A stretch of DNA of 64,000 nucleotides from contig BSYQ01000001.1 in assembly GCA_030272585.1 (NCBI GenBank), positions 6,138,001 to 6,202,000 of the forward strand. The letters are read 5' to 3'. Under the pieces are notes generated by a model. It searched no databases. It was given only the letters and a program-made list of their open reading frames with translations, and was not told the DNA's origin. Every line of letters begins with the position of its first letter. Position 1 is the first letter of the stretch. The translations under genes were made by a program, and so were the position numbers. The DNA is from Bryopsis sp. KO-2023. Its lineage: Eukaryota > Chlorophyta > Ulvophyceae > Bryopsidales > Bryopsidaceae. Positions 11,922-58,424 of the stretch are shown one piece after another.

Positions 11922-12571
11922 TGTAACGAATCTGCCCTGCAGATCGCTTTTTCTGCTTCAATACACTGAAGACTGCGACCCTGCCGGTCTGCCAGTCTGA
12001 ACTGCCGTTCTATTAAACGACCATGGGAGAGATACTTGAACCTAGCAAGGTTCAAGGGCGAGATCAGGTTCCAAACTAAGGTTAGGTTAAGTTACAAGAA
12101 TGTCCAAGCCCCAACAACTTATACCGTTTCTTCCAACCCTGATCCAAACTGATCCTAAGCCATAACATCAGTCTGCATCAGTGTTGCAGACCATCAAACT
12201 ACCAAGTTCCTTTCAGTCCCCTTTCATGACATGCAGCCTCAGACACCTTGCACGGTACTGCGGTCCTGAGTCTGCCACCTAAGACCTTCTAGAACCTTGT
12301 GCCTGCCAGCTCTGCAGCCCACGTTCTGCAACGCTGCCAGCACCTGTCTGCCATCAGCAACCCTGTCAGCCCGACTACTCTGCCACTTCGTCAGTCTGCC
12401 AATCTGCTGACTACCAGTCCTTTAGTCTGCAGGTCTGAAGGACCTGAACCATTCCTGCTTCTGCAGAATCATAGCAGTCAACCTGCAGCTCTAACCTGTC
12501 AGCCCAATCACTGCCAGTCTGCAAGCCTGCAGGTCTGCCTGAATCGCCTTTGATTCTGCCGAATCACTACA
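11922..12571 (-). repeat. 5' LTR of LTR-2
   Basis: 650 bp; see 3618-4267. Followed on the plus strand by the AGTAA target duplication. Confidence 0.9.
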
Positions 12572-12576
12572 AGTAA

Positions 12577-14891
12577 ACACAGCAGCGTTGTCAGTCATAA
12601 CAACCTGAGGCTGCCCATGCGATTGTATCCAAGTTTCCAGAGCTTGACTTACAGCAACAGCATTTGCACTGGACACAGGCCTTGCTTCAGCAAATCGTGA
12701 GCAATGATCAATAGTGGTTACCAGATATATGGAACCGTCCGTCCCTTTCGGAAAAGGTCCAACCACGTCCATACTGACTGCTTGTCCAGGCCACCCCCCT
12801 CGCTTCGTATCTCCCCATGGTGCCTTCTCCCTCGGTCGCTCGTATTTTTGACAGACGACACAAGCATGCACATAGGACTCCACAATAGATCGGGATATTT
12901 TTTCTCCTCGCATTCGTAAAACCTTCAACATTTTCGCGACACCGAAATGGCCCCTGTGCGCCTCCCTAAGGAGTTGGTTTATCCGCTGCTTCCTTTCCTC
13001 GTCAACGTGGTATAAAGTCAGCTTTGCTCCTGTCTCATGACTCGCCCAACGTGAAAGTAAGTCGGCGAGCACATTGACTTTACCTGGCAAGTGCGTAAAA
13101 CGAAGATTGCCACCGACCGTGTAATTTCCTGTGATGTAGCTGAGCAGCCGCAGCATCCTTAGATCAGAATCGTCAGTTAAACTCCCTGAATTAAACTTTT
13201 TAGCCGACCCTTCGGAATCGGTAAAAACTTGCACATTCGCTCCTCCCGTAATCCACGCGACTTTCTTTAGCGCGCGAACAATCGTTTGCGCTTCGCCCAG
13301 GAAGCTGGATACGGCTCGTTTGCTTGGAGAGTTTAAGTGTGACCCCAAAAACACAAGTTGATCACCTTGTGTCAATGCATATCCCCCGGCGGCTGACGAC
13401 CAATCCGTGTATAACTGGAAATCCTCCCCTGGCTGCTGCATCCGCATGTCATACACAGCACTGAGTACGTCCACCACCACTGATTGGAAACGTTTGTTGA
13501 CGAGATCCCAATCCGCTTCACGCCCTACAGCCGATAATTCCTCGTACATAGCTTGTACTTTCCTCGCAAACCCAGGCACGTGTCCCTTCACTACGTTCAG
13601 CATTCCGAGAGCCTGTTGTAGTGTCTTACGCCCTTGTATTTCCGGTAATCCTTCGCGCAGCTTCTGGCAGTACGGTTCCAAGCTTACTGTTCCTTGTGAT
13701 ACCTCGTATCCGAGGAATGTGACGCGACTTTTCTTCAGCTGAGCTTTCTCCTTTTTCACTTTGAATCCGAATCGGTCCAAGATCTGGAAAAGTGATTGTA
13801 GCTTCCGATCGTGTTCCCACTCATTGCGGGCTCCGATGATGAGGTCATCAATGTAAACCTCGGCATCTAGATCAGGAAAGATCTTTCGAGCTTCTTCCAG
13901 TACACGCTCAATAATAGAATGGAAGATCAGCGCGCTCCCGTTAAAACCTTGTACCAGCCGCTGAAATCTGTACCGCCTCTTCCCCATGCTGAAACAAAAA
14001 TAGTGGCTGAGCTCATCGTCAATTCCCAAATTAAAGAAACCATCTTTAAGGTCAATTACTGAAAAGACCCTATATTCAGGGTTCAGCCGTGACAGAATGG
14101 TTTTAACGGGTGTGAGAGGAGTTTTCCACGTTCGGAACAGTTTATTAATCCGTCGGCAGTCCAACGTAATCCGTACTGCGGTACCCCCTGGTTTTTGGAA
14201 TACCAACGGCTGTGAAAACAGCCCGCGCTCATCCCAGCGTAGCTCCTTGACGATCCCCCTCCGTTCGAGGGAGGCTATCTCTGCTTCGGCTGCGCCTTCT
14301 TGTCCCATGGATAACGGCTGCCAATCACTGAAAGCGCTAAAGCTCGCAGTTCCGATCTGTTCTAGGTCAGACATCGTGATAGTGAGAGCGGCCATATCAC
14401 GTGACAATCCACTCGATGCTGGTGACAAATCAAAAACTCGAGGAAACCTTTGCATAAGCTGAGACAGACACTCATCCTGACTTTCTGGCTCGATCAACTC
14501 ATGGTTCATAACCTCTGCGCTTACATCCTGTGACTCTCCCTGGACATCCCACTTCCCATATCGTCCCCACTTAGATCGACGAACATCCCAAACTTTAGTC
14601 GCCCCACGTTCTAAGTCTTGTCGCTCTTTCTTGCGCTGAATCCAACTTCCTTCTTTTCCTTGTTCAGTAGAACTCTGTTTTTGTCGCCTCCACTCGCTGT
14701 CTGTCTTTTGTACGTACAGTCGGTCAGAAGTATTACTTCGGACTCTGGACATCGCACATTTTCCGTCAATATCGATCAGCTCATTCAAACGTCCTGGAAT
14801 AAACCAAGCTCTGGTCTTTGGGGTGACGTGCTGGATCTCACTACTGTCGTTAACGAGATATCCAAACAAAGTGCCCCCTGCCCGCTGTTTC
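12577..14891 (-). mobile_element. LTR-1 reverse transcriptase, RNase H and integrase N-part
   Basis: Minus-strand coding block of about 770 codons. It shows reverse transcriptase motifs (I-T-L-D-C-R-R-I-N, F-S-V-I-D-L-K-D-G-F-F, and the active site V-Y-I-D-D-L), an RNase H region (L-Y-T-D-W-S-S-A-A-G, then V-F-T-D-S-E-G) and a G-K-V-N-V-L-A-D-L-L-S-R motif. The integrase follows: an H...H...C-V-V-C-Q-K zinc-binding domain and the core start V-S-M-D-V-V-G-P-F-P. LTR-2 interrupts it in the integrase core and TIR-A borders its N-terminal side. Domain order RT-RH-IN places it in the Ty3/gypsy group. Confidence 0.85.
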
Positions 14892-15344
14892 CATACTAGG
14901 GATATGATAGGCAATGATCGGCCTGCTAAAAATAGGTCTAAACGGGGTCGGATCGGGATCGGATTTTCACTAATGTCTATTATAGGGTGATACAAAAATA
15001 ATCGGTTTTTTTTTTTTTTTTTTTTACCGATCATGATCGGTGCCGATCATCGGTGATCGGTGTCTTGATCGGACCGATTAATCGAGATCGGCGACCGATC
15101 CGATCAAAGAACGGCGTCGGCCGATCCCGATCCCGATCCGATCAAGGCGCGGAGCTGTGATCGGAATAGTCGGCCGATCAAAGTCGGCGTTTTTTTTTTG
15201 ATCGGTACAATGATCGGGGAGAACCGATCATGATCGGTATGAAAGGCGCGAAGTCGGTGAATTTGGTAAATTTCCGATCAGATCGGATCTGCCGATCACC
15301 CACCGATCCCGATCCGATCATGATCGGAAATCGGGTGACGCACA

Positions 15345-15455
15345 AAGTAACCCCCGCAGGGTCCCCAGAACCCAAGGGAACCGAGTGGGATTCGAACACC
15401 ATACCGCACGATGCCGAGTCATCTACACTGAGCACTAAGCCAAGTGGACCACGAT
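15345..15455 (-). other. tRNA-like module, left arm of TIR-A
   Basis: Minus strand: A box TGGCTTAGTGC (15432-15442 complement) and B box GTGTTCGAATCC (15388-15399 complement), spaced as in a tRNA gene. The T-arm pairing is imperfect, so this is a promoter-like or SINE-like module rather than a functional tRNA. It is followed by the tail ACCCCCGCAGGGTCC (15350-15364, plus strand), shared with TIR-C. Confidence 0.65.
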
Positions 15456-15539
15456 GATTTCGTGGCTGTTGCGATCATATACCTTAATCTGTTTGTAATT
15501 CTGTGAAATTAGGGTATATTATTGCAACAACCACAGAAT

Positions 15540-15660
15540 CATCGTGGTCCACTTGGCTTAGCGCTCAGTGTAGATGACTCGGCATCGTGCGGTATGGTGT
15601 TCGAATCCCACTCGGTTCCCTTGGGTTCTTGGGACCCTGCGGGGGTTACTTTGTGCGTCA
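15540..15660 (+). other. tRNA-like module, right arm of TIR-A
   Basis: Inverted near-copy of the left arm. A box TGGCTTAGCGC at 15554-15564 and B box GTGTTCGAATCC at 15597-15608. The arms differ at only a few positions. Confidence 0.65.
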
Positions 15661-15957
15661 CCCGATTTCCGATCATGATCGGATCGGGATCGGTGGGTGA
15701 TCGGCAGATCCGATCTGATCGGAAAACGCCGATCTCGATCCCGATCCGATCTGGTTTCCGAGGCAGAATTGGGTGATCGGCCGATTTTGATCGGAAAAGT
15801 CGGACCGATTTTTGTGATCGGTCCGATTTTGATCGGTGATCGGTTTGATCGGACCGATCTGATCGATGATCGATTTGATCGGAAATCGCAGGTGCCGATC
15901 TTGATCGGAGATCGGTTTGATCGATGACCGACATGTCGGCATCGGATCCCTAGTATG

Positions 15958-17737
15958 GTTGCGAATGCACACGTAACCCATGTTTATCTGCGCGTACGTT
16001 TCGCGGCTTAACAGCCAGAGCCACATTCCCGTGAAGAAAGCATCGAGCAGAGGAAACGACTTGTGTAGTTCTTCCAGGCCCCAATAAGGTGTCATTTCCT
16101 AGAGTCAGCACACATTCTCCTGAGTCTGCTTGAGTCTCCTTTTTTTGCCCTGCTGATGCTTCCTTAGTAGTAGCTGAAAAACAGATTATCTCTGCCTCTG
16201 TTTTTTTGTCTACTAATCGGTCAGTCCCTGGGTCTATGATAAAGCCTAAAACCCCGATGGCCTCCTTTCCCAGAATGCTTCGTCCATGCCCTTCCAAAAT
16301 AGTGAATTTCAGCTCGGACCGGTTCTGCCCGACTTCGACCATCGCTGTGGTTGTTCCGAGTGATTGTACACTGTCCTGCGTGATGCCCTGAATAGACATC
16401 TTTCCTGGTTGAAGAGGAAGCCCAAACTTTCGTAATGTCTTCTCATGAAGAATACTGACTGCAGCTCCTGTGTCAATCAAGAACTTGACTTGCTGTCCTC
16501 TGATAACCCCATTGACATGCATAAGTCTCCTGTTCTGTTGGCTGCTGTCCGAAGTATTTCCCACTCCCACATACACTTCGTCTTCATCCGAGTCCGAATT
16601 CATCCACACCGTGCTGACAGTGTTTTCTCCTTCGGTATCCACATGTTTGACTGGCTTTCCTGCAGTGGCCCCTTTCCCCGACATAGGCTTTCCTGTCAGT
16701 GGTTTCTGTGAAGAACTCCCCCCCTCCGTCTGCGCCGTGGTGACTATGTCAGTAATTCTTTCGGCTAGCCAGGGGTTCCGCATGGCCTTTTGGACAGTTG
16801 TCAAAAGTTCGTTCATACGCGAAAGCTGAAGTGGAAACGTTACCAATCCCTTGCCGTTGATTGGAAATACTCCCATTTTGTCTTCACACTCCATATTACT
16901 CTCTGCCGAGTTTACTTTTGCTTCCTTGTTTCCTGCGAGGCCCAAAGCTTCCCAGTCGCTGGCTAGCGAAGTGGCGTCTTCCAGCGCGGTGGGCTTACGC
17001 GTTTCGACTTGAACGCGAATATGAGGGTGAAGTCCCGCCAAGTAGTGCCCAACCAATTCTTCCTCGCTAGCTTCTGGTATTCTGACGGCCAGTTTGCGAA
17101 ACAGAGCATTGTACTCTTGGACACCCTTCGTGCCTTGAGAGCAGCTGCGTATCAGTCTTCGAACCCTTGTGTTGTCGTCCTTTCTCGCAAATTGACTCTT
17201 CATCTTTTCTCGTAGCAGCTCAAAAGATAGAGTTCGTATGTCAGTTCGTTCCAAAAGGACCCTGTACCAGCTTTTTGCGAAACCACGCAACATAGTCCCG
17301 ACAAAGCGCACCCGCGCAGTCTCAGAGCTTTCACCTATCAACTCAAGATATTCATGTATTCCGAACCACCAATCCTGGAAACTTTCGTCAGGTTTTTTCC
17401 CGGTGAAATATTCGGGCGTACCAAACTTTACTTTGGCCACTGTATGGTGACGGACCCCACTTTCAATTGATGTTCCATTTCTTCTTGCTTCACGGCCACC
17501 TGGACTGGGTACCGTAAAGACCTCTTCGTATTCACTTTCTGGTGGAATGGTTACCCGTTCTGGGGTTGGCCTTCGGCCTTGCGAAGCCTCCAGCGCCGAC
17601 ATACGCAGTTCCAGCTGCGAAAACTCTTCCCGTATGCTTGCTTGAACAGCCCTCACAATTTCTGACTCCATGGCGGTTGCCTGCCCCAGTTGTGAGCCCT
17701 CCGCCAAAATCTCTCCAGGTTCTCCAGGCTCATTCAT
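15958..17737 (-). mobile_element. LTR-1 gag and protease
   Basis: Minus-strand coding block starting at an ATG (17735-17737) that begins right after the primer-binding site. The N-terminal half is a Ty3-type capsid region (W-W-F-G-I-H-E-Y-L, then L-R-G-F-A-K-S-W-Y, then H-Y-L-A-G-L-H-P-H-I). An aspartic protease follows, with the active site L-I-D-T-G-A-A-V-S-I-L. I see no CCHC zinc knuckle between capsid and protease, unlike the Gags of LTR-3 and LTR-4. Gag and protease share one frame. TIR-A is inserted downstream. Confidence 0.8.
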
Positions 17738-17738
17738 G

Positions 17739-17750
17739 GCTCCGAAACCA
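17739..17750 (-). other. Primer-binding site of LTR-1
   Basis: The minus strand reads TGGTTTCGGAGC, directly abutting the 5' LTR. Confidence 0.8.
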
Positions 17751-18012
17751 TATAATAACAAGACTTTCTGACCGAAACGTGAATGGGTACAACACACAGA
17801 GAACACACAGTCTTGGCCCAAAAGGGACTTACAAGGATATCGCAACCATTTCCATCCACCAATAAATATCTGTTCCCGTTCTGTACCGCCTTGTTACTCA
17901 CAGTACTTCTTCATCAGTACTGCCACTTTACAATACAGATTCCCACACTTTCCTAACCATTTTCCCTATCTCCTGCGTCCCTCATCTGACTCCACCTTCT
18001 CAATCCTTTACA
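17751..18012 (-). repeat. 5' LTR of LTR-1
   Basis: 262 bp, the same as 2757-3018 by eye; followed by the ATACT target duplication at 18013-18017. Confidence 0.9.
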
Positions 18013-22015: not shown

Positions 22016-23253
22016 TCAACTAGCCGGACGTTGCCCGGACTCCTTTTCGTCCCAAATGGACATTTCGTAATTTCCATTGGAGTCTTGAGCAGCTCTGAAC
22101 ATCCCGGTGGAGGATATTTCCATCGCAATCTCCCCATCTGCATCCACAGCAATGATGCCCCCTGCTTCCTTGTCCATCTTTTCATGTAAGACTTTCAGCA
22201 CAGCATCTTGTAGACTCAGCCCCCCGTATTCCATTGCAAAGCACACTTGAGCAGCCGAAGCTTGATTGGCAAAGGCCTCCCCAGTGCCGGTGCCACAAAC
22301 CGCAGCAAAAGGAGTTGCGAAGCATCCAGTCCCGATGGATGGGGAATCTCCGATTCGGCCGGGCAGCTTGTTTGTCATGCCCCCTGTTGACACGGCCACT
22401 GCAAGATTCCCATCTGAATCTCGTGCCACCGCCCCAACCGTTCCCTTGAATAAACATGCTTCTGGAAGTCAGATCTACATAGCACCCACCATATCGCAAA
22501 GTAAAAAATCATATACCAATTTGGGGTAGCATTTGGGGTCCCAAATACAGAGGTGCACATCAAAGCAATCCCTGTTGGAAATAATTTCCTTTGTGTTTTT
22601 TGGGAACCCATGACAGTCTGCTCTCTCTTTCCTTCATTCGATTCTGATTCTGCTTTGCTGCACTTGGAACTACAGGAGATTAAAAACAAACAAATGAATT
22701 TGATGCCCACCTTGGCGTCGTCCTCCAAGTCATGGTCTCGTGCAAGTGCGCTCAACTCTTTCGCTCGCTTGCTTTGTGCCGACCTCTTTTCTGTCACAAA
22801 GAACTCATGCTTCTCCTGCTTCAACCCCCAGTCCCTCGCCATTTTCTCCAAGGGCTCGTTGCTCAAAAAAGTATGATCTGTCCTGGTTCGCACCAGCTCC
22901 GCTAATAATATTGGATTCACGGTAGTCGTCACGCCACAACAAGCACCGCTATCCATATCGGTCCCCTCCATCACTGCGGCCTCCATTTCGCAGATCCCTT
23001 CAGTCGTCAGGCAAGATCCCTTTCCTGCGTTGAACAGGGGGCAATCCTCCATCAACACCACGGCTTCCACCGCAGCCCTCAAAGCTATAGTACTCTTTTC
23101 GGACCATTTAACAAGAACGCCCGCCTCCTCCCTCTTGACGACCGACACAGCTCGATCGAGCGCTCTTGCAAGCTCCCGCCTGAATGGCGTGGCGTCGATG
23201 TCTCTGGATATGTTCCCAGCCCCGCCGTGTATAGCAATGGACCACAGAGGCAT
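22016..23253 (-). CDS. Isoaspartyl peptidase / L-asparaginase (N-terminal nucleophile hydrolase)
   Basis: Two exons (23253-22711 and 22444-22016) join in phase to 323 residues, the usual length. The product is a Ntn-type asparaginase that hydrolyses beta-aspartyl peptides and asparagine. It is made as a precursor that cuts itself before a threonine. The start S-I-A-I-H-G-G-A-G is the family N-terminus, and F-N-A-G-K-G-S-C-L-T binds substrate. The second exon opens with G-T-V-G-A-V-A-R-D, so the catalytic Thr lies two residues after the splice junction. G-R-I-G-D-S-P-S-I-G-T-G and C-G-T-G-T-G-E-A-F complete the beta-subunit signature. All key residues are present. The chosen ATG (23251-23253) leaves no room for a signal peptide, so it is probably cytosolic. 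It is divergent from the RdRP gene, about 190 bp between start codons. Confidence 0.92.
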
Positions 23254-23442
23254 ACCGAAACCCGTGAGGTGCCGAACCAAAGCGATGAATCTGGCCGTCA
23301 CGATCGTCAAGACAGTATCTGAACGTCGACGTGTTCACCTCGTGGCCGTACCTTGTCGCTTGCATGTCGGTCCCTGTGGCGTGAAAATGCGGCTCACCTG
23401 TGTCGACATGGAGGAGGTTTGGGGGGAAGGCCAGTCTTCGAC
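23254..23442. promoter_or_regulatory. Shared divergent promoter region (asparaginase / RdRP)
   Basis: Only 189 bp separate the two opposing start codons, so both promoters must overlap here or lie in transcribed leader. A short upstream reading frame (ATG at 23408, about 12 codons, ending at the RdRP start) precedes the RdRP ATG. No clear TATA box is seen. Confidence 0.45.
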
Positions 23443-26400
23443 ATGAATCAAACCATCGAGGACGAAGACTGCTCGCCTATCGACGACAAGTTTTGGGAGC
23501 AGATTCAACGTAATGGAAACGACGCGAATGGGCACGCCACAACGAGCACCGATAGATACGCAGAATGCCTGCAGGAAAGGGCGCGAAACGAGGCCATGTA
23601 CGGAGGAGGAGGTCAGGGCGACCAGAGCAACGGAAACGAGTACGGCGTCTATTGTGAAAACGGTGAATATGGTGGGTATGGTGGATATGGTGGCTCTGGG
23701 GACTACTACGGTGCAGGAGGGGGGGCGGAGAACGGGGGAGGTCCAGTCCACTCGAACCACTCGAACGGGGAAGATTACAGAGACGTCAGAACGCCGGAAC
23801 CTGTTCAAACGGTTTACGAACCCACGCATGCCCCATACGAGAGCTCCGTCAGGTTATGGATCGGCGTCGTCAACCTCCCCGACAACGTAACGAAGGTCGA
23901 CGTCAAAGAGCTGTTCGCGTCGGTCTTCAGGATTCACGATTTCAGGGAATTGCCCTACGCCGTCACGAATGCTGCGGGTGCATCTCGGGAAGTGGAGTGC
24001 ATTATGTACCCCAGGGACGCGAATTTCGTGGATTTGTTGGAGGAAGAGTTCAAGGAGCAAGTGCTGAAATTCTGGTTCGAGAGTCCTCTCGTTTCCTCCC
24101 TCGACCCCCGAGGATTGATGTGGCTTCATGAGGTTTCTGACGAGGTTTCAGCTAAATCGACGGTGCTGAAGGGCAAAACTGCAAAAGTGGAGATCTTGGG
24201 TTTGGAGATGGGGTTGTTTCGAGATCAAGGGCATTTCGTCAAAAGGGCACAGTTTGAATCCAATGCAAATGTCGAGTTGTACTTGGATTTCAGCACTCGG
24301 TCCATGGTTATAACGATTCAAAACCAATACACCATAGAATTTCAGACCAAAGAGGTGCAAGATTTCGTGGTGGTGGATTTGAGCTGGGGTGCCAGTGCAA
24401 TTTATCTGAGCATGAAGCACCCCCCTCGAATATACGAGTTGAGAAACGAGGATCCTGACGGAAACTCCGACACGGATATCAAGAGGAGGAGAAACAACAT
24501 TTGGACGATTCCTGTGGAGGTGTTTGCGTTCTGTCAGACATACAAGCTTCAGGTGGTCAACACGAGATTGAATCCTGCTGTGAAGAATCCGAATGTGAAC
24601 ACGGCGTTGAACATGCTGGCTGCCGTTGGAAAGGAGATATATTATGGAAAGGTGAGTGAGTGTGTGTGTGGGGGGAGATTTTATTGACATGATTTGTCCA
24701 AAATAACAAGTCAGGATGTGAAGGCAGTATATTGCGCTACTAGACCTAGTTTTTTTCTCGACAAATTCAATGATGAGCATTTGTCCAACCAAGCACATCG
24801 TCAGAATTGATCAGCAGACCGGGTTACCCCATGGTCAACGTTTTTTTCACCCAAAACTGAAATCTCATTGTTGTTTTTTTAATCGGAACCTTGTGGACTG
24901 TTGTCGAGAAGCTTAGTTTCTCTCCTTTTTTTTTCTCGATGCAATTTGTTTCTCAATTGCTCTTTTTCTGGGGTGCATCGGGTGAAGGTCAAAACAATAT
25001 TCCCGAAGACCGCATTGCCCTCCTCACAGTCTGGTATCCCTACGACGACCAAGCATCACAAGAACCAAGCTGTCAATTTCGCTTGGCTGTGCCTCTCCAC
25101 CTCCAGAGGGTTCGTCATCGACCGATTCGACGATTCCTTTTTCGAAAAATTGAACGAAATCGATGCATGGAGAGCAGAAGCAGCTTTGTACTCCATTACA
25201 TCGATCGTGGCGAACGATCCGTTCATAGCTCCCTTGGAGGCCTTGAAAATCGGATGCAAGCGAGGAAAGAAAGTGGGCGATCTGGGAATGTTGGGGGAGC
25301 AGGGGCTTCATTGCAAATTGCCAAGAGTCATCATCACGCCGACTCGAATACTTTTTTTCGAGCCCGATATCGTGCAGGTAGCAGCGACGGTTGGCACAGG
25401 GGATAGCTCCGTTTGTTGATTCGATGCAGTGGAAAAAATTTCGTTGAATTTTGTTTTCAACGCTGTGGATTGAGTTTCAGCAATGGCAGAATCCAGAGCT
25501 TTCTCAGGAAACCATATTGTCTGCATCACTGGTTGAATGATTTCACCAGAAAATGTCAATAAAGAGAAAAAATATATGTTGATATAGATTTAATTTACAT
25601 TGGGCAAACTTGCCCAACGATTGCCGTCCACAACGAGGTGATCTATATATGCGTAGATATTGAATGTGCATTGATTTTCTCTGCGTTTTTTTCTTTTTTT
25701 TCGTTTCATAGACCAACAGGGTTTTACGTCATTTTGGAGAGCAATATCGCTTCATCCGGGTCGCGATTCGAGACGAAAACATGGCCAAAATTTCTGGAAT
25801 CCACGGTCAGATCGGAGGGGTCCTCAACTACATAGAGGAGCTCCTCAACGAAGGATTCGAGGTGGGAGGAGTCAAATTCAAGTTCCTCGGGGCATCCAAC
25901 AGTCAGGTTCGGGACCACGGCTGCTGGTTTGTCGAGGTGAAACCGGAACAAGACACCGCCAGGAAAATACGGGATTGGATCGGGGAGCTTTCTGGTGAGA
26001 CTCTCAAATCTGGACTCAATTTGAATTGGCTGTTTGTGTCAGATGGATTATAATGACTGATGTGCAGTCTGGGCTCAAGCATGCAGTTTGAGTTTTCCAG
26101 AATCAGATTGATATGTGCTTGGTCAATTTTTATTTTTTTTTTGTGGAGCTGATGGTGGTGGTGATGATGGTCTATTTTTCTTAAGGATTTTTTTTTTCTA
26201 AAAACACTTCTGGTGAAGGGCGAATTGCCCTAATAGCTGGCTTTTTCGGGCCAAGTCCAGGCTGTGGTGTTAATTTGTTCGGTGCATCCACATGACAGGA
26301 ATCAAGAATGTGGCCAAGTACTTGTCGAGGCTTGGCCAAGGTTTTTCCACTTCCACGGAGACCGTGAAGATCAGTGTTCCGGACTACCAGCTGCTTCCGG

Positions 26401-29400
26401 ACATCATAAGAAATGATTATTGCTTTACGGATGGGATCGGAAAAATCACAGCGGATCTTGCTGAAGAAGTGGGTAATATCTGTAACAGCTTCTTTTTTAA
26501 ATATCTCTTGTCGTTGGATCTTTGACTTGCACCTTTTCATGGAAATAAAATCATTGCTGGAAAGATGCGAACCAACTCCAACCCGATTTTTTTTCAACCT
26601 TGGTTAAGAGAGGCAAGCACTTCAAGCCATGCACTCAGCACCCGTCCCGTGTTTGGTATTTTGCCAGTATTTGATGTCGAAATCGTTCATTGGGCTGAAT
26701 CAAGCCAATTGTTTATTCCACCTTCCCACAGCCACGATACAAATTATTCTAACATCTTCTTTTTTTGTTTTTTTTTCTTTTTCCCTGACCGGATGTAAAG
26801 ATAGCCACACACCTGAATTTACCATACACACCGTGTGCTTACCAAATAAGATTCGGTGGAGCGAAGGGAGTGGTGGCTGTCGACAAATCTCCAAACCTTT
26901 CCCGACTGTTTCCCAACAAAAGGATTTTCGTCCGTGAAAGCATGTTGAAATACAATTCTCAGCACACCACCGTGGAGGTGCTTCAATCTCGATCGGTACC
27001 CCAAGAACTTTATTTAAACCAGCAGGCACGTTGAGATCAGGCAAGAGGTGAATCGACTCCGCAAACCATACTTTCCACACTTTTGTTTTTTGTTTTTCCT
27101 TTCCCTTAAAATGAAAGCGCTGTTTTTTGAGGTGGCTAATTTGACTTCGAAAAAGCAAATGGGGGGGAAATTGTTTTTATTCAGGAAGGATGGAGCATAG
27201 TGCTGATCTTTGCTTTCCCATAATCGAGGGAATCGGTCCTATCCTTGTTGCTTCACCGTTTTTAAAATCTGGTTTGATTCAGAGATCGGGAGGGGAAGGC
27301 CCCCCCTTCCCTAGTTTATGACTATATTACGAACTTTTTTTTCATGTGGATTCTTTTGACAGCTGATCATGCTCCTTCGGAATGTGGGCGTCCCGGACGA
27401 AGTTTTTGTTGGGCTGCTCAAAAAGACTCTCAACACGATGTCCCAAATGTTCATCGACGAAAACGTCGCCCGCTCAAAAATGCGCAGCATCCTGTGTGGA
27501 GTCAGGTGGGATGACCTGGAAGCTACTGGATTCGACATCACCTCCGAACCATACTTACGGTCCATGCTGATGGCCTTGTACAGGTGGGTAACAGCAATTG
27601 TACACGTCTTTCTATAATCGTTCGTGTAAATGTGTGTGTCCGAAATATACTGTTGCTGGAAGTTTTGTTTGGTCAGATTTGGGAGGGGGCGATTCCAGAA
27701 CACCATATCGAAGTTTGATTTTGGGCCGATGTCTGCGTCAGGGTGCAAATGCAGAACATCCGAAAGAAGTCCAGAATTCCAGTGGATCCCCGGGGGGCTC
27801 GTATGCTGCTGGGCGTGGTGGACGAAACGGAGAGTTTGCGATACGGCCAAGTCTTCATCCAGATTTCAGTAAATTTGAAAAATCCACTCAGTGGCTCAAA
27901 GGTTCTGAAGCAGAAGGTGGTGGTCGGAAAGAGCCCATGTTTGCACCCAGGTGAAGAGAAACAACCATGCCTCGCATGGAAATTTGACTGACATCATCCC
28001 AATATCCAATACCTCCCCGAAGAATCTCGCCCACAATTCATGCTTGTCAGACCAGCGTTTCCGTCGTTTTTCTCTCAAGCTGTTTTTTGTCAGGCGATGT
28101 CAGAACCTTCGATGCAGTGGACTGCCCAAAATTACGCCACATGGTGGATTGCATAGTGTTTCCTAGTCTCGGCCCCAGACCCCATCCGAACGAAATGTCT
28201 GGGTCTGATTTGGATGGAGACATGTACCATACGATTTGGGATCCTGACCTGATGCCACGCAGACCCATATACCGGCCAATGGAGTACCCCTCAGCAAACG
28301 AAAAGCAAGTTTCCGGAGAAATCTCGGTTCCAATGATGATCGGATTCCTGAGACAGGTGCGGTCGTGCTTGGGCGACATTACATTAAATAAGAGTTCCGA
28401 ATCTTGTACTCCTTCAAAAAATGTTGGCTTTTCGGAACGACATCGGACAGTTGTGTGTAGAAATTTCGGAAAACGGGGAAAATCCTACTTTGGGGGTTGA
28501 AGGATGGGGCTGCATTTTTTTGGGGGTGGAAGTTGAAACATGTTGGCTTCTTGTTGGTGCATTGACTCGGTTAATGTGTGTGTGTGTGTGTGTGTGTGTC
28601 TGTTTTGACAGAGCATAGAACACGATTGCCTGGGGCAAATCGACAACACGCACAAAGCGATGGCCGATAAGTGGGGCTTGGATTCTGATGCCTGTATCAG
28701 TCTGGCTTACTTGCACTCCCAAGCCGTGGATGCTCCGAAAACTGGGCAATGGGTGTCGGTGCCAGGCAGCCTTCGCAGACAGATCACGAGATATCCAGAT
28801 TTCATGATGAAACAAGACAAGCCTTCGTATCCCTCGAATCACGTTCTGGGTCAAATGTTCAGGGAGTGCAACAAGTATCTGAATGCCTGCAGCGTGGATA
28901 TGTCAGCCCTGGGGTGCTCAGGTATCGTTCGACAGTACTGTGTCTTCCGGAATGAAACCTCGTGGACGTTTTTTCACTGTGGCTTAGTCATCGGTCCATT
29001 GAAAACAACACCGATACAAGGGGGAAAAAAAAGGGGGAAGGGAGTCGGAACTCAGAAAGCGACTTTTGTGGTTTTCTGTATATGTATAGAGACTGAGCTC
29101 GATCGGCGTTTCGAGATTGAGGGTTTCCAAGAGTTCATCCCGGATGCAAGAAAACGAAGGCAGCAGTACAATTTGAAACTGGACGGTCTGATGCGGATAT
29201 ATGGAATTGGCTCCGAAGGGGAGCTCATGACGGGTTTCATAGAAAAGTACCATGAAAAATTGGGCAGGGAGCGTTCGGATGTCGCTGCAATGGCCGGTGT
29301 GGTGCGACAGAAGCTTACCGAGCGATTCAGAGAGGAATTCTTCATGGTGGGGCCCATGCATATTCCATGTTCCCCCGAATTTGTATTGTATCTGGAAAGA

Positions 29401-32400
29401 ATAGACCAGCCGCCAAGAATTGAGATACATTGGCAACACTGCGGCTCAAATGATGTCCTGGAATTGTGCATTCGGGCCCCCCCCCAAAAAAAAAGAAAAA
29501 TAAATAAATAAATAAAAATGAAAAGAAAAAGAAAAGAAAAGAAAAGCAGTGAAATGAAGAGAAAAGAAAGAAAGAATAAAAGATAAACCAACGAAATCTG
29601 TGTAATAAAAAAACGTCATTATGAATGGGTTTTTGCCCTGCAACCTTGAGTAATGTCTGGACCTTTGTGGCTGATTCAGGATCAAAAAATTTACGCAGAT
29701 GGTGTCATTGAAGAAGAGGCCGCCCTGAGGAAAGCTGCCGCTTGGTATTACGTAACCTACTCCAGCGACGAAGATGTGGAGGTTTACAAGGTTGGAAAAA
29801 CCACTGCCGTCAGGTTTTTGAGTTTTCCGTGGGTGGTGAGCGACTATCTGATGAAGCTTTACAAAAGGAACCTGGACCAAGGGAGAACCAAGCCAGAATC
29901 GGTGCAGTTGGAAATCGGGCGATCGATTTGTGCGGAGTTCAAGAATTGCGAGCATTGGCTAGTGAGTGGATTCAACGAGCGGTGTCAACTGAGGTAAGAA
30001 AATTGAATGTTTTATTTGCTATTTGAAGAAGCATCGACATAGCTGTACTAGAAAAAAAATCAGGGTAAGAATCATGAGTGGTCGAACGATTTGCTTCGGG
30101 TGGTGAGGCTTGATTCAGACGCTGCATTTCCAACAATTACTATGGTTACACCATATCCCAGGCGAAATCCCTGACCTGTAACAGCTCCTCTGTGTCTGTG
30201 GAGCAGGGACTCAATCAACAGCGTTCTGTGCCATCATGAAGGATACTATGCTCTGTTGTATGGCCTGTCGGCGACTTGCTTGTTCGACACTCGCAGGAGC
30301 AACGAGGCCGATTTGTTGGTGATGACTAATGATCACAGTCACATCGGTCGTCTGGGCCGTGATCTCATCATGCAGAAACAAATCCTGCGAAAAATCAAAG
30401 ATTGGATCCAGGATTCATGCCGGCACTGCAAAATCATTCGGACCACGGGGCTGGCGAGGCTACGATTCGCTGGATTGACACAAACAAACGTGAGCGTTTT
30501 TGCTTGTTTAAAAAAAAAAAAATTGGGGGGTGGGGGGGGGGGGGGGGGGGGGGACGTCGAACGTCAGAGAATTTGAGGTTTTCAAACACTCCACCCTGCT
30601 TGTCCATACCTCAGCATGCCTTGTTCCATTTTTTCCTTCGATTCTGGCCTTCTAAGCACACCAATTTTCCCCTGTCTGTTTGAATTTCAGTGGAAGGGAC
30701 ACATGACGGTCATCCCAGAATACCTCGTCCAGTCAATGGTGCTGATTGACTACATATATTACAATCCATGGCTGTTGCCTCTCCTGAGGGTGGTGATCGG
30801 ATGGGGGATGGTTACAGGCATTGTGGGTGCTGATCAAAATTCACTCCTGGATTCTCTGGTGTTGGGCTTTATGGTGGTGGGCTTCTGTTTGGACCGAAAT
30901 CTCCTCCACAGAGTGAATGGCAACCAGGTATATCGATCAATCCCACCTCGAGCTACCTGTTATGGTGTTTCGCTCAAAAACTTCCAGCAGAAGACGTCAA
31001 GATCTTTTGTGTTCGTTTTATTCACACAACCCCATATTTTCTTGTGGTAGATTTTTCTGGAACGAAACCCATGGGTTGAAGGGTTGTCCACGTTGGATGG
31101 CGCGTGGATGGAATTTTTTTTTCTGATCTAAAAAAAAAGAATGCAATTGGTCGAACCAGCTGAGAATGCAATTGGTATATAAATGCGCTATTTGAGCCAG
31201 ACCTTTTGACACAGATTGACTTGGTTTCATGCAGATCAAGGAGACTGTCGAACGTGGCGGGTTTGACGAGGGATATTTCTTGCCTGACCTCTGGCAAGGG
31301 ATCATCGAGGCTCTGTACAGAGACACCGAGTACATGCCTTCTTTGGGTGCAGTTCTGTTGGAATTCTTTCGTAATGCCGAGCACAACGCCATTAAGATCC
31401 ATCCTGATCTCCAGGGTGTTTTGGGTGGTACCTACTACAGTCAAATCCCTAATGCCGATCGACATGGGGTCAGTATGCTGAAAGACGAAATGTTGCGTGC
31501 ATTTCACAGGTACATAGAGATGACAGTTTTTTTGTAAAATGAATTTGAGGTGGTTGGAAGAGGCCCCATATCCTCGCTGTTTTATTTCAAAGTCTATCTG
31601 TCATGGGTTTTGCATGGTGATGTATCTGATTTGAACCTCCATTTTAAAGAGATTCGTTTCTGGTTGGTTTGCTACGTATGTTTCAGGTTGTGCATGCACC
31701 GGACAGTGGTGACCCTGCAAGACACCGTCAAAAGAGAGCAAATCGAGTTCATCCGGTTAGAGGATTGCCGGACGATGATCAAATACGAGCAGTACTACGC
31801 TCGATTGTTAACTCAAGTGGCGGGGGCGGATGTGGAAGTGCACAATCAAGAATGGAGCAGGGTGCCAGGATTGCTGTTCAAAATCAATGGAACGAATGCT
31901 GCGATTCGTACGGCTCAACGTCAGGTGGACTACTTCAAGAGGAGGGGCCAGACGTTGGCTGTCGTTCGACGCTCATTTCCTGGGGTTTCCTGCCTGTGGG
32001 TGAAAGGGGCATCGATATTGATTGTGGAAGGCTCAGGGACGACAGCCCAGCACGATCGAGTGCTGTTTGAGGACTACTCTGTCAGACCAAGGCATCCTGA
32101 CCATGATAATATCGGGCTGTACACTTTACGGTTAACCGTGGGCTACCCGAATCGCAGCGATCCTTTGCATGCTGTTGGAAGTGAGTTTGAGGAATTCAAG
32201 CAACATTTGCAGGAGAGATTCCGTGCGTTGAAAAACTCTGCTGCGTACAGCCACATTTGCAACGGTCCGATACGGATGGAGGTCCAGTTCGGGCTGCTGT
32301 ACATGGTGAACGCCCCCACGAATTATATCGAATCGCCGGATGGGGTTCTCGTGCAAGATGTGAAGGATGCAGTTGCGAAAACGGTGCCGGAGGGAACGGT

Positions 32401-33395
32401 GCTGCATCCACTCATGTGGCTGGAGGAAGTGAACAACAACAGGTCGCTGTGGCGATCGAAACTCAAGCAGCCCACCACAAAATCAGCCATCCAATCCTTC
32501 TGCTTCTCGAGAATAGACCCTGCGGTGTCCAAGGTCCGCTTGAAAGAAATGCTCGTGGAGGAGGGGTTCAGAGAGGGGGACGTCGAAGAGGGGTATTATT
32601 TGGTGTGTCGAGGGGAAAACACAGGGCAGGTGGCGAAGTACTACATGAACATGCGATTGGAAAAAGTGTTTTACCCTCCGTTGAAATGGATGGTTGCTGA
32701 CGTTAATCGGAGGGTTTTGGGGAAGAAATTGGCGACAGGAGACATTCGCTTCGAAGTGACATCTCAGAAATTCAACACGGTCGCCAAAGAGCTAAGAAAC
32801 GGGATCGTGAATCATTCTTCATGCAAGAAAGTCAATATCAACCTCATGAGTCGAACTGAAGAGTTTAGGTAAGACCGAAAATCTGAAAGGGGGGGGGTTT
32901 GGGGGATTTGCTTGATACCTGCTCCAAGTTCCTGGTGTTCCCCCATGAACGAAAGCGAAAAAATATATGTGTGTGAATGTGTTTGCTACTACATCCCCCA
33001 TCTGTTGCTTCCTTTTCTCCTATTGTATTATTTTCTACAAATTTGGGCAGGGGCTCCAGCTTGCTTTCATATAAAACACCAAACTTCAATATTGACAAAA
33101 CCTCCCGTTTCTTTTCAGGAAATTCAGGCGGCAAGAGTTCTGCAGAGATTCAAGCGGACCTTGGGCAACCAAAGTTTACGTCGATGAGGTGGAAGTCCAG
33201 AGCCGGCCGAAGAAAGCACCCTGCGGTAGATTCACAAGCTTCGAGTTCTATGAAAGCACTCTGGAGTTGAGAATCGAGCAGGATCTGATGGATTTCTACT
33301 GGCAGGGTAGCCTACCCGATGAATTCCTGTCAGACATGTGGAAGCTCGCATGGGGGCTTTCCAATAGACTCAGGGGCATGACTGGTCGGCAATGA
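23443..33395 (+). CDS. Cellular RNA-dependent RNA polymerase fused to a poly(A)/poly(U) polymerase-like region
   Basis: Sixteen exons join with consistent phases to 2034 codons: 23443-24651, 24988-25377, 25712-25994, 26299-26468, 26801-27025, 27363-27583, 27742-27950, 28094-28356, 28612-28921, 29090-29346, 29680-29993, 30207-30489, 30691-30927, 31235-31509, 31687-32868, 33119-33395. Residues 70-100 are Gly/Tyr-rich. Residues about 400-1180 form the QDE-1/EGO-1-type Rd[20 protein letters not shown] and the catalytic loop G-S-D-L-D-G-D near 941-945. This enzyme copies RNA into double strands for RNA silencing. Residues about 1284-1550 look like a non-canonical poly(A)/poly(U) polymerase: [12 protein letters not shown], a helical domain ([10 protein letters not shown]) and a PAP-associated motif [10 protein letters not shown]. 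The usual D-x-D pair appears altered. The last 480 residues are unrecognised apart from a KH-like patch. The intron after 27025 begins GC. RdRP identity is firm; the fusion is inferred from splicing phases. Confidence 0.85.
28575..28599. repeat. (TG)n microsatellite in RdRP intron
   Basis: About 12 TG units lie next to the acceptor of the intron before exon 9 (exon starts 28612), in the usual polypyrimidine position on the sense strand. Confidence 0.9.
30509..30553 (+). repeat. A-run followed by G-run in RdRP intron
   Basis: About 13 A, TT, then nearly unbroken G for about 29 bases, some 20-60 bases after the donor of the intron that follows exon 12. Purine-only sense strand with G-quadruplex potential; length may be a sequencing or assembly approximation. 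Confidence 0.8.
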
Positions 33396-34443
33396 CCGTG
33401 TGCGTTTATCTTGTCTTTGGTGTTTCATGGAGGAAATGGTGGGATTGTTGTTTTTTTTGGGTACTCTTCGTTCAAGGTGGTGGTTGTATTTGGGAAAAGT
33501 CATATTGGCAAGCGTTTAGGAGATAGCTATTGGCAAGCGTTTAGGAGATAGCTATTAAACAGGGAATGTGATATAGAAGACTATGTAGACCTGGCAGGGA
33601 TCATTTGAACTTTGTTAAACAAAAGTTTCAATTCTTGTGCAATGGAAGTTGCGTCATGGTGGATTCTAGAAAATCAAGCCCCCTTTTGGGTGTTGTTTCT
33701 ATTATCGAGTGTTTGCTTCAGATTTTTAATCACCAAGCCAGCATGCAGCTCCCAGATAGCAACATGTCAGTTTCGTGTCGTGGGATGTTGTGTGGTTATC
33801 ATACATGGGAGGCAGTGGGGTCAGAAAGGAGTGGATCATTACAACACTGAGGTATCCTGAACAGCCAGGAATATATTTTTATTCCTCATAGACAGTTAGG
33901 AATCCTTAAGGACTTACAGTCAAATTTCAGGTGAAATTGTTCATCTCCTGACTATCTATCCCCCTCACCAAATTAAATCACCTGTGTTGAGGGTGTCAGA
34001 TTTTCAACAACAACATAGGCCATTCGCCCCTATCACAACCAAAGTAACAAGACGATTGCTTTAATGTTGCTTTGGTTTATTGACGCTCATAAACCGTCAA
34101 ATTCTGCATAACCTTGAATTCGGGCGTCGCTGAGATCCCCACCGATCGATCTCGCTACAATACCAAGGGAGCACACTCTCTCCTGACACCCGCCAAGCGA
34201 AGGGAGCCTCCAGGAAGCATTGAATCAACGACGGACGGGGTTCCAAGTGCGATTTTTGGCGTTGCTGAGATCAGATTCATTGTCTCAAATCCCCGCTACG
34301 ATCGAATTCACCATTTCCTGTGTTCTATTCAACTTAAAACAATAAAAAAAATTGAGTAATTTCATGTGAAGTGCATTGTCTTCCCAAGAGATTTCTGACA
34401 GAAGCGTTGTGTTTGAGTAGAATTCAGAGATTTGGGGTCCCCC
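33396..34443. other. Intergenic, no gene seen
   Basis: Contains a perfect 25-bp tandem duplication (33504-33553) and a loosely repeated motif GGCGT(C/T)GCTGAGATC at about 34124 and 34258. No coding or RNA gene was recognised. Confidence 0.5.
33504..33553. repeat. 25-bp tandem duplication
   Basis: Two back-to-back identical 25-base units, beginning ATTGGCAAGCG, just 3' of the RdRP stop codon. Confidence 0.9.
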
Positions 34444-34923
34444 ATGATGAAAGTCATTCGGGGAGATTTGATCGATCTGGCTATTCGCGGTCAGTTTGAT
34501 GTCATAATTCATGGCTGCAATTGCTTCTGCACCATGGGAGCAGGGATAGCAAAATCCATCAAGGAGACATTTCCTGGTGCTTACGCCGCGGACCTCAACA
34601 CAGCAAAGGGTGACAGAGATAAACTTGGGACGTTCTCCTCTGCTGCTGTTAAGCTGGATGAGCATGATCTGGTGGTGGTGAATGCATACACACAGCACCG
34701 ATTTGGGAGGAGTCGGGGTGCTGCAGCAGACATGGATGCAATTCAAGCAGTCATGAGGAAGGTGAAAACAGAGTTTGGTGGGAAGAGAATTGGGTATCCA
34801 AGGATAGGGGCTGGGCTGGGGCGTGGAAATTGGGAAACGATATCAGCGATAATAGAGGAGGCTTTGGCAGGTGAAGATCACACTCTTGTTGAGTGGGATC
34901 CTGGTACGAATTCGAGGGGTTAA
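34444..34923 (+). CDS. Macro-domain protein (ADP-ribose / Appr-1''-p binding)
   Basis: Single-exon frame of 159 residues consisting of one macro domain. Macro domains bind ADP-ribose; the stand-alone short ones act on ADP-ribose-1''-phosphate or remove ADP-ribose from proteins. Visible motifs are I-R-G-D-L-I-D at the start, I-I-H-G-C-N-C-F-C-T-M-G-A-G-I-A (the N and glycine-rich ligand loop) and Y-P-R-I-G-A-G-L-G-R-G-N-W near the end (second loop). The layout resembles the YBR022W/POA1 or bacterial phosphatase-type group more than MacroD. The first ATG of the tandem pair is taken; the frame has no stop for four codons upstream. Intronless unlike its neighbours, which could reflect retroposition or transfer, but this is only suggestive. 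Confidence 0.88.
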   Translation: MMKVIRGDLIDLAIRGQFDVIIHGCNCFCTMGAGIAKSIKETFPGAYAADLNTAKGDRDKLGTFSSAAVKLDEHDLVVVNAYTQHRFGRSRGAAADMDAIQAVMRKVKTEFGGKRIGYPRIGAGLGRGNWETISAIIEEALAGEDHTLVEWDPGTNSRG

Positions 34924-45746: not shown

Positions 45747-48010
45747 ATGGAAAACGCTTTGCTGGAAGCTTTGCGACATATTCTAGGCCAGGACCTAGGA
45801 AACTTTGACGAAGCCTACGTAAGGCAGTCTTTTGTTACCGCGCTCGAGAAAGTCCCCCACGTTACGACTAACCCAGTCGACCGTCCGAGTGGAACTACGA
45901 TCGGAGATTACTTCCCTATCGAAGGGACCGTGCAAGGGTATCGTTTGTTGGAAAAACTCGGACCTGGGGGCTTTGGGAGCGAGCTTCGCACTTGGTCGCC
46001 GGTTGTCTCGGCTCTGTTTGATCTCACCAGCGGTTTTTTGACGATCCTCTGCAGTCCGCATACGCCGCCTGCAGTGCGCCAAGTTCTAGGGCCTTACGCC
46101 CAAGGTTTTTATAGAACTCTCGTTCTCTCAGTTGAAAGTCTAGAAGTGTTGAGATTGAAAGCCGATAGTGGTGACAGTCACCCTGGGGCGTGGAAACTAC
46201 TTCAGGAAAAAATACGCCTTTCTTTTGCGGCGAAACAGTTTAGCGGAACTAGGACCGTCAGTACGCTCGAGAGTTTGAGCGAAGATTACCTGAAGTCCCT
46301 TTCTAAGTCACTAGGACAACAACGCGCTCAGGGATCGCGACCTCAGGGAAGAAAACGAAACGAAAGTGGATCGGGAAGCAGTGGAGGCTTTCGCGACCGA
46401 GGAAAGGAAAAAACTACTAAAACGGAATAATGGATCCGTACCAGGCGTGGACTTCGCTCCAGGTACGCGCTCGTTATCAGGAATGGGTCAGAGTGGGGAC
46501 GAGCCAAAGGGTGCTCAACCGTATCAGAAACGGAATACAGGCCAGGTTTGTCGGCGTGCCCGACCCAGTTCGTCCGAAAAAAAGAGTGAGACCTGTCGAA
46601 AAGAACGCAGAATGGGAAAAAATAAAAGAGGATTATCTCAGAAAAGGGGCGATTCAGCAAATCGCAGCGCCTAGCGCAAGTGGGATTTGCAGTCATGCTT
46701 TTTTAGTAGATAAACGAAACGAGAACGGAGAGGTTAGCGGTAAGCGGTTGATTATAGATTTGCGACCTTTGAATCGCCAGGTCGAACCTCATCCAGTGCA
46801 ATATGAGGATCTTAGGTCGCTTTCTACACATCTCCGACCTAATGATTACATGATCAAATGGGATTTAAAAGATGCATTTTTTCATTTGGGTATAGACCCC
46901 ATGCATCAACAATTTTTTGAGTTTGAGATGGAAGGGGAGTTTTTTCGTTGTACTTCCCTTCCTTTCGGTTATCGGGGCTCTCCCCTCCTTTTTTGCGAAC
47001 TAATTCAACAGTTCGTTCGTTTTTTACGGAACCCCGGAGGAGTAGCCCATCTTGAATCACAAGGGGATCATGATTTTATTTTTCAGTTTTGGGATCGATA
47101 TCGGAATTCGATCGATCCAGTTCGAATCACATGGTATCTCGACGATTTTATGGGGATGCATGGGGACCCCGCTGAATTAGAGATTTTTGGTTCGTTAGTC
47201 AAGGGAATGATGAGTCAGTTGGGATTACAGTGGAAGGAAGAAAAATCTTCCTGGAATCCCCAGCGACGACTTCAGCACCTCGGTTTTCTTGTCGATACCG
47301 AGTCGTGCTTGTTTATTTTGCCTCCTCACAGGCTGGCGAAGCTCAAGAAGCTCGCTCGCCGCGTTCGAGTTACAGCGCTGCAGAAGGGACGTCGTTTGCC
47401 CGCTCGGGATCTCGCGCAGTTCACAGGGTATGCGCAATCCTGTCGCCTCGCCATTCCAGGGACGCGCTACTGGCTCCACCACCTCTATCGATGTCTACAG
47501 GGCCTGCGTTCTTGGAGCAGTCGAGTTCAGGTGTCGCGGCCAGCTTTGGCGGAGCTCCGCCATTGGCAGAAGCTGGATCCCGACACAGTATCCATGGCGC
47601 TTTGGCCACCACTTCCGACGCACACTTTGAGCGTCGACGCCAGTACAACGGGGTGGGGAGCGAAGTTGGAAACCCCTGGACAGAGAGTTCCAGCACTCGC
47701 CGCGGGTTTCTGGCAACACACGGAGAAGGAGCACATCAACGGCCTGGAGATTACGGCGGTGCGCAAAGCCGTCGATTATTTCAAATCGGAGCTGCGCAAT
47801 CAACGCATCACTCTGGTGACAGACAGTTTGGTCACCCGCTGGGTACTGAGTCGGCAGAATTCCCGTTCCAGCGCGTTACATCGCACGTACAGTCACGTGT
47901 ATCGCCTGTTGGATTCATTGGGGATCGACATGGAGCTCAAGTGGATACCGTCCAAGGACAACCATATGCCCGACATACTGTCCCGACTCACGTCAGCCGA
48001 GGAGTACAGA
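45747..48010 (+). mobile_element. DIRS-like retroelement, partial
   Basis: Two adjacent plus-strand coding blocks (about 45747-46430 and 46430-48010). The second contains a reverse transcriptase and RNase H of DIRS/Ngaro type: I-I-D-L-R-P-L-N-R, W-D-L-K-D-A-F-F-H-L, L-P-F-G-Y-R-G-S-P, active site W-Y-L-D-D-F, then L-S-V-D-A-S-T-T-G-W-G-A and W-I-P-S-K-D-N-H-M-P-D. No protease or integrase accompanies it, as expected for DIRS elements, which use a tyrosine recombinase. The first block looks like a structural (Gag-like) protein with a charged Gly/Arg-rich tail. The recombinase and end repeats are not in view. The element appears to be cut at 48010 by the LTR of LTR-4, so its right part, if it survives, lies beyond this window. 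Confidence 0.7.
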
Positions 48011-48329
48011 TGATACCGGAATCAACGGTTATGGAAGTCCCAGCAGCGGAATAGACATGGACTATTCCCTGCAGCAGAATCAATCTGACTGGACCACGGT
48101 CTACCAGCCTGGAATGGTGCCAGCTGTGGACCGCGTCCAGTCAGGACCTCATTCTGATCCCCATCATACATGTGTGGTCATGCACGGACCCAAGTCCGGA
48201 TGACCTGGAATACGGTTAACCACGATTCTGCCCGCGGGACTAGCCCAGCAGACTATAAGAACCCGAGTCCACAGTTGTGGACTACCCCAGTTATTTTGAC
48301 GGAATAGTCTACTCAGAATCACCATATCA
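48011..48329 (+). repeat. Probable 5' LTR of LTR-4
   Basis: About 319 bp starting TGATACCG and ending ATATCA, followed by two bases and the primer-binding site. It contains a TATAAG-type box (about 48256). No partner copy in the window; boundary inferred. Confidence 0.5.
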
Positions 48330-48331
48330 AC

Positions 48332-48343
48332 TGGTTTCGGAGC
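48332..48343 (+). other. Primer-binding site of LTR-4
   Basis: TGGTTTCGGAGC on the plus strand, the same 12 bases as in the other three LTR elements. Confidence 0.75.
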
Positions 48344-48495
48344 GAACCTCTTTCCTCTGTTCGACTACGCACCGTGCATGGACCACGCACAAACTACCGA
48401 CCAGCCTACCGCGGAGTTTTGGGCATACTACTACCAAAAAGTCTGTGCCTCATACGGGACTAGCGGAGACTACGCAGAAAGCGTCGGGTCTACAG

Positions 48496-53400: not shown

Positions 53401-54347
53401 GACTCTATTTCCAGTATGTGTTCCCTCAAGCAGGAATCCCGGAAGCAATCGTCTCTGACAGGGACCCAAGGTTCACCAGCAAGTTCTGGAGAGAACTATT
53501 CCGGCTGGTGGGGACCAAGCTGAAGATGTCGACTGCCTACCATCCCCAAACGGATGGCCAGTCGGAGGTCACGATACGGACCTTGGAGAATTTCCTGAGG
53601 CCATACCTGGAGGACAGACCAGAACGGTGGTCTGAGCTATTGACGACAGTGGAATTTGCCGCGAACAATTCCGTCAATGCTTCCACCGGACACACACCAT
53701 TCTACCTGATGAATGGTCAGCATCCCAAGGGAATCGACATGGTCGACAGGACAGGGACCAAGGTACAGGCAGTGGACGAAATGTTGAAGGACATGCAGCA
53801 GACTATGGATGAAGCAAGGACGCAGTATCAGAAAGCGCAAGACCAAATGTGCCAGACCGCCAACAAGAAAAGAAGACATGTGGAATACGAGGTAGGAGAC
53901 GAAGTCTGCCTCCGGTGCAAACATTTGTCTCTGGCATTCACGAAGCACATTCCTGCGAAAGTCCGGAGAAGATTTATTGGACCATTCAAGATTGTGGCCA
54001 AAATATCACCTCTGGCATATACCCTGGACTTACCAGAGACTTGGAAGATACATCCTACAGTCCATGTTTCAAAGTTGAAAAGCTATGAAAGGTCTGAGGA
54101 GTTTGTGAGAGATGAAGTCCCAGGACCAGCTGTGACAGACCAAGCAACTGGGAATGCGGAATATGAGGTGGAATCAATTGTCCAAGTCCGAGGCAAAGGG
54201 AAACGCAGGGAATGGCTGGTGATCTGGAAGGGTTACCCATTGCATGAAGCCACATGGGAGCCACGAGAGCATTTGGAGAATTCGAAGGACGCCATGGAAG
54301 AATTTGAACGCAAGACTACGACCCGTCTTCGGACCAGGCGTAGATAA
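50349..54347 (+). mobile_element. LTR-4 pol with chromodomain
   Basis: One long plus-strand frame of about 1330 codons. In order: protease (A-W-A-Y-V-D-S-G-S-W), reverse transcriptase (M-C-I-D-Y-R-W-L-N, F-S-R-L-D-L-R-S-G-Y-W, V-V-F-L-D-D-I-I-I), RNase H (V-V-T-D-A-S-D-L-A-I-G-G), integrase (H...H...C-P-T-C zinc site, T-T-D-L-V-T-D-L-P, I-V-S-D-R-D-P-R-F-T-S, A-Y-H-P-Q-T-D-G-Q-S-E) and a C-terminal chromodomain (E-W-L-V-I-W-K-G-Y-P, then A-T-W-E-P). Chromodomain at the end of integrase defines chromoviruses and steers insertion to marked chromatin. Confidence 0.85.
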
Positions 54348-58345: not shown

Positions 58346-58424
58346 TGTAGGTGATCCGTGTCATTATATAGGTGATCTGTCAGTCCGACAAACTGAGGTA
58401 TATAATGACACGGATGACCTAGTG

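Follow-up and report, generated by a model that had tools for sequence, protein, structure and literature searches.

The stretch of DNA analysed here (the window, 64,000 nucleotides of contig BSYQ01000001.1, positions 6,138,001 to 6,202,000) stems from Bryopsis sp. KO-2023 (Ulvophyceae) and contains the gene BSKO_01283. Its product, P0001, combines an RNA-dependent RNA polymerase (RdRP) of the RNA interference (RNAi) type with a long C-terminal tail, for which a nucleotidyltransferase fold, a KH domain and a triphosphate-tunnel fold are predicted. The nucleotidyltransferase signature is degenerate, and the whole tail recurs on RdRPs of other eukaryotes. We suggest that P0001 is probably an RNA-silencing polymerase with a largely non-catalytic tail which binds RNA ends in the service of second-strand synthesis.

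The polymerase gene and its domains

The gene and the domains of its product have the following positions in the window:

23443..33395, + strand, whole gene BSKO_01283 (P0001), 16 exons, single chain of 2034 residues
23443-24651, 24988-25377, 25712-25994, 26299-26468, 26801-27025, + strand, exons 1-5
27363-27583, 27742-27950, 28094-28356, 28612-28921, 29090-29346, + strand, exons 6-10
29680-29993, 30207-30489, 30691-30927, 31235-31509, 31687-32868, 33119-33395, + strand, exons 11-16
24274..24567, + strand, PH-like domain of RNAi RdRPs (PF25358), residues 278-375
25333..28869, + strand, cellular RdRP catalytic domain (PF05183), residues 519-1076, exons 2-9
28207..28221, + strand, RdRP catalytic loop DLDGD, from the translation
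29968..31810, + strand, nucleotidyltransferase-fold domain, end of exon 11 to start of exon 15, profile match at residues 1276-1590
31730..31963, + strand, KH domain, residues 1564-1641
31973..33380, + strand, triphosphate-tunnel (Cet1/RESC-like) fold, residues 1645-2030

An earlier note on this DNA had joined the 16 exons in frame to 2034 codons, and this is borne out by the annotation, as the spliced translation of the window is identical to P0001 over all 2034 residues. The gene models used here are gene predictions. The intron borders are GT-AG in 14 of the 15 introns and GC-AG in the one after exon 5. A shift of exons 12–16 against exons 1–11, by one base or by two, brings in 28 or 31 stop codons, whereas the true frame contains a single, terminal one. 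Thus, the sharing of one frame by exons 1–11 and 12–16 is not a matter of chance.

The RdRP part of P0001 is ordinary for RNAi polymerases. As the note had stated, the N-terminal part is a cellular RdRP with its catalytic loop: residues 519–1076 match PF05183 with an E value of 8.2e-165, and the D-x-D-G-D loop of the family is present. The best solved match is RNA-dependent RNA polymerase 2 (7roz, E 1.5e-109, residues 505–1246), and the match to PF25358 (E 3.4e-5) scores 23.9 bits, under the family cut-off of 27. No helicase was found in P0001 by the Pfam scan. Given the intact polymerase loop, second-strand synthesis is to be expected.

The predicted model of the following domain displays the palm and the helical domain of Cid1/GLD-2-type nucleotidyltransferases and is confident up to about residue 1555. 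Together with the single frame, this agrees with the proposal that an RdRP and a nucleotidyltransferase fold of this type are united within one chain. Exons 15 and 16, on which the note was silent, model as a KH domain and as a fold of the triphosphate tunnel metalloenzyme or RESC-like type. In the tunnel domain one arginine is invariant in 10 of 10 aligned members. Ahead of the conserved FG, P0001 has a strand with the sequence IRMEVQFG, which differs among these ten members; by eye, no E-x-E is conserved in it, a possible difference from the Cet1/Pct1 RNA 5′-triphosphatases.

The neighbourhood of the gene has no bearing on the fusion. An asparaginase-family open reading frame (22378-23334, − strand) is arranged head-to-head with it, at a distance of about 110 bases between this frame and the RdRP start codon, and a macro-domain frame (34417-34920, + strand, E 3e-5) lies 3′ of it. 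Seven of the 10 open reading frames of the window that were scanned are gag/pol frames of Ty3/gypsy-type retrotransposons, two of them with chromodomain ends (12494-17893, − strand; 46421-54344, + strand; 55709-60230, − strand).

Signature of the nucleotidyltransferase-fold domain

The catalytic signature of Cid1/GLD-2 nucleotidyltransferases, namely G-S, D-x-D and a third aspartate, was located in P0001 by alignment (A1):

30265..30267, + strand, Leu1304, at the serine of the G-S signature (serine in P0070 and P0071)
30304..30312, + strand, E1317-A-D1319, at the D-x-D position
30700..30702, + strand, His1382, in place of the third catalytic aspartate

Thus, P0001 reads G1303-L1304, E1317-x-D1319 and H1382 where S, D, D and D are present in P0070 (an ENA entry) and in P0071 (from Aphanomyces astaci); His1382 corresponds to slice residue 115 and falls within the predicted strand 113–117. 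Alignments A1 and A3 comprise 14 and 10, respectively, of the 18 tail-bearing proteins described below. A1 omits P0073 and P0059 (tails apparently unrelated or very weak), P0011 (first part of the domain badly aligned), and P0006, P0009 and P0063 (near copies of included members). The signature glycine is retained in all 14 members of A1, and the full signature in P0070 and P0071 only. The coral protein P0005 keeps G-S and D-x-D and has histidine at the third position; the remaining 11 members have lost at least two of the four signature positions, and differently so. The nearest relatives of P0001 have I/K/E/C (P0002), T/E/E/C (P0004) and P/S/N/E (P0003) at these positions. Such varied replacements are the pattern expected when the constraint on catalysis is relaxed and the fold is retained, and the sequences look as if catalysis was lost in this way.

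Relatives carrying the same tail

Relatives were gathered through the RdRP region only, among proteins of about 1118–3560 residues which share exact words with it; the survey is therefore not exhaustive. Among the 78 RdRP matches, the nucleotidyltransferase profile and the tunnel profile both match with E values below 1e-20 in an identical set of 18. These belong to Bryopsis (2 genes), EukProt (2 proteins), three corals (4 proteins), two amphioxus species, oyster, Paramicrosporidium, Aphanomyces, and five lgn/ENA/JGI entries. The tail-bearing RdRPs of amphioxus include P0008 and P0009. The search of relatives which the note had proposed thus recovered the same domain order on 18 of 78 RdRPs. 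Its view that the merger happened at this locus does not hold, as the tail occurs in several eukaryotic groups and on a second Bryopsis RdRP encoded on another contig (P0003, BSKO_09332, 2727 residues), which has a helicase, an RdRP and the same tail. An N-terminal helicase was found by domain scan in P0003, P0005, P0007 and P0053, and it is listed among the database's precomputed domains for P0006, P0011 and P0071.

In plant RDR1-type proteins the best E values were 1.6 for the nucleotidyltransferase profile and 0.17 for the tunnel profile. Protein searches with the tail alone retrieved only the query itself, both for the tail of P0001 (6161 candidates) and for that of P0071 (the 7987 candidates scored). 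In P0069, a microsporidian RdRP from Vairimorpha necatrix, residues 1828–1936 match the tunnel profile weakly (E 3.8e-7).

Two relatives are encoded on short contigs: for P0062 (1320 residues) the longest contig has 4514 bases, which leaves at most about 550 bases for introns, and for P0064 (1361 residues) 4983 bases leave at most about 900. As these contigs are barely longer than the coding parts, predicted splicing matters little for the fusion in these two cases; in both proteins the RdRP domain lacks its N-terminal half.

The RdRP tree was calculated from 34 of the 78 matches. Eighteen rows were labelled tail-bearing, including the weak P0012 and P0059, and a nematode row with DUF7752 was left without the label; P0006 and P0011 are not among the 34 rows. 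The Bryopsis proteins and two EukProt rows group with the corals (support 99/99) and not with plant RDR1 or the Chara RDR; gene transfer or an ancient paralogy may be the reason. Support is insufficient for the wider tail clade (81/64), and P0070 and P0071 with their complete signature are placed elsewhere. The tail label requires four changes on this tree; the tail may have arisen once or several times. The signature is still complete in Aphanomyces P0071 and in P0070, and an ancestor whose tailing domain worked is likely.

A reduced form of the tail may exist in nematodes. In the amphioxus protein P0012 the Pfam family DUF7752 (1158–1263) overlaps the nucleotidyltransferase profile match (1149–1326), and DUF7752 and DUF7636 in this protein (1149–1391) coincide with the nucleotidyltransferase's helical part and the KH position. 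The nematode RdRP P0065 from Aphelenchoides, whose class we take to be EGO-1/RRF-1, carries both families at residues 1360–1633. P0012 and P0065 are alike in these two families; unlike P0001, however, P0065 is matched directly neither by the nucleotidyltransferase nor by the KH profile, and the tunnel profile matches neither P0012 nor P0065.

What the tail may do

The domain anatomy of P0001 is well supported; its function we infer. Computation yielded four results: one reading frame that agrees with the annotation throughout, the folds as predicted, the degenerate signature, and the recurrence of the entire tail on RdRPs from other eukaryotes. The C-terminal ∼760 residues would form three modules handling RNA termini: a pseudo-nucleotidyltransferase fold, a KH domain and a triphosphate tunnel of the Cet1/RESC type. 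Products of RdRPs carry a 5′-triphosphate when synthesis begins unprimed. The polymerase would turn the template into a second strand beginning with such a 5′-triphosphate, the pseudo-nucleotidyltransferase and the KH domain would bind single-stranded RNA, probably the 3′ end of the template, and the tunnel would grip, or less likely trim, the 5′-triphosphate of product or template. By this grip the chain is proposed to retain the RNA ends through repeated synthesis or transfer to Dicer or Argonaute.

Several points weigh against this proposal. Pfam, applied to P0001 or to its tail slice alone, yielded no match to a nucleotidyltransferase model, and a four-member algal profile found no solved nucleotidyltransferase in the PDB but only Kit receptor chains (E ≥0.15); phmmer of the tail slice against the PDB returned ribosomal L36 only (E 0.75 and 1). 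Therefore, the nucleotidyltransferase assignment is based on the relatives and the predicted fold. Of the note's reading of exons 12–14 as a nucleotidyltransferase, the quoted motifs and the Cid1/GLD-2 fold with its helical part stand, and of the profile and structure search which it had suggested, the structural half agrees, as the predicted model matches nucleotidyltransferases; Pfam gave no support. With the tunnel sequence profile the KH part is the sole match, and the confidence of the tunnel model is moderate (predicted local distance difference test, pLDDT, 75.3, with slice residues 98–105, 159–165 and 239–270 below 50). Finally, the end-holding role is a prediction from fold and conservation, and which RNA end is held by which module is guesswork.

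Alternatively, the tail might be a protein-docking scaffold which has lost RNA binding and holds a separate tailing enzyme, Dicer or Tudor proteins, or dimerises the polymerase. We regard this as rather unlikely, as a KH domain between the nucleotidyltransferase and tunnel folds and the invariant arginine of the tunnel suit nucleic-acid binding. Still less probable is the note's proposal for P0001 that tailing by an active domain of the poly(A)/poly(U) polymerase type is coupled to second-strand synthesis in one chain. Active tailing enzymes have the fold that is predicted here, the acidic side chains E1317 and D1319 are retained, and the signature is complete in two relatives. Moreover, a study on RelA/SpoT-like enzymes, which share the nucleotidyltransferase fold, describes activity with one acid missing (PMC11646218), so that loss of activity in P0001 is unproven. 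On the other hand, two of the three catalytic aspartates and the serine of G-S are replaced in P0001, and P0002, P0003 and P0004 carry different replacements, as under relaxed catalytic constraint; the coupling is thus not what the signature suggests. That the gene model wrongly joins an RdRP gene ending near 29346-30207 to a separate adjacent gene is very improbable: the evidence for the chain comes from gene predictions, but the frame is common to both sides of the junction, the same order occurs on RdRPs of distant groups, and in P0062 and P0064, although they lack the N-terminal RdRP half, the fusion hardly depends on splicing.

A tail which binds RNA ends, as we prefer, can be compared with known systems. 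RNAi RdRPs are usually depicted as a single catalytic domain, at times with a helicase. In the RNA-directed RNA polymerase complex (RDRC) an RdRP, a nucleotidyltransferase and a helicase act together; that of Schizosaccharomyces pombe consists of the separate proteins Rdp1, Hrr1 and Cid12, and the Rdn proteins of Tetrahymena are nucleotidyltransferases. Tetrahymena Rdr1 co-purifies with Rdn1 and Rdn2, according to PMC6562869. Both complexes resemble P0001 in their parts, an RdRP and a Cid1-type nucleotidyltransferase, and the helicase is present in some relatives, such as the paralogue P0003, but not in P0001. In contrast to these separate proteins, P0001 is a single chain, in which the nucleotidyltransferase is degenerate and KH and tunnel domains are added. 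The degenerate signature and the fusion to an RdRP also distinguish its domain from GLD-2, Cid1 and TUT4-TUT7. The trypanosome proteins RESC1-RESC2, which bind the 5′ end of guide RNA, are free-standing subunits of RNA editing with 9% identity to the P0001 tunnel in the structural alignment; for RESC2, PMC10201420 names the residues K311, R359, R402 and R424. Dictyostelium, oomycetes and cnidarians possess helicase-RdRP proteins of the same RdRP family; the part of their description available to us (Bollmann 2016, PMC4791657), the closest account in the literature searched, does not include the tail, and P0001 differs in having no helicase.

As the note had supposed, no RdRP fused to a nucleotidyltransferase or triphosphate tunnel was described in the literature searched on such fusions and on RdRP make-up, to which subscription papers mostly did not belong; an earlier mention is possible. 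The scope includes accessible parts of PMC6396948, PMC7943196, PMC6562869, PMC4791657, PMC10080066, PMC12265681, PMC11646218 and PMC10201420, and PMC6396948, PMC7943196, PMC4791657 and PMC10080066 do not contain 'nucleotidyl' in their main text.

As a tentative extension, which we hold to be possible rather than probable, an ancient class of RNAi RdRPs might sense both RNA ends in one chain, the 3′ end by a nucleotidyltransferase-derived domain and the 5′-triphosphate by a RESC/Cet1-type tunnel. The tunnel would then be kin to the trypanosome protein that binds the 5′ end of guide RNA and would tie the amplification step of RNAi to RNA editing in kinetoplastids, and reduced remains (DUF7752, DUF7636) would persist in nematode EGO-1/RRF-1. 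If the tail is what its folds indicate, many RNAi RdRPs hold built-in readers of RNA ends. This would offer a testable answer to how RdRPs choose their templates and handle their 5′-triphosphate products, and would suggest that the nucleotidyltransferases which are separate subunits in the yeast and Tetrahymena complexes have fused counterparts, often pseudoenzymes, in other organisms.
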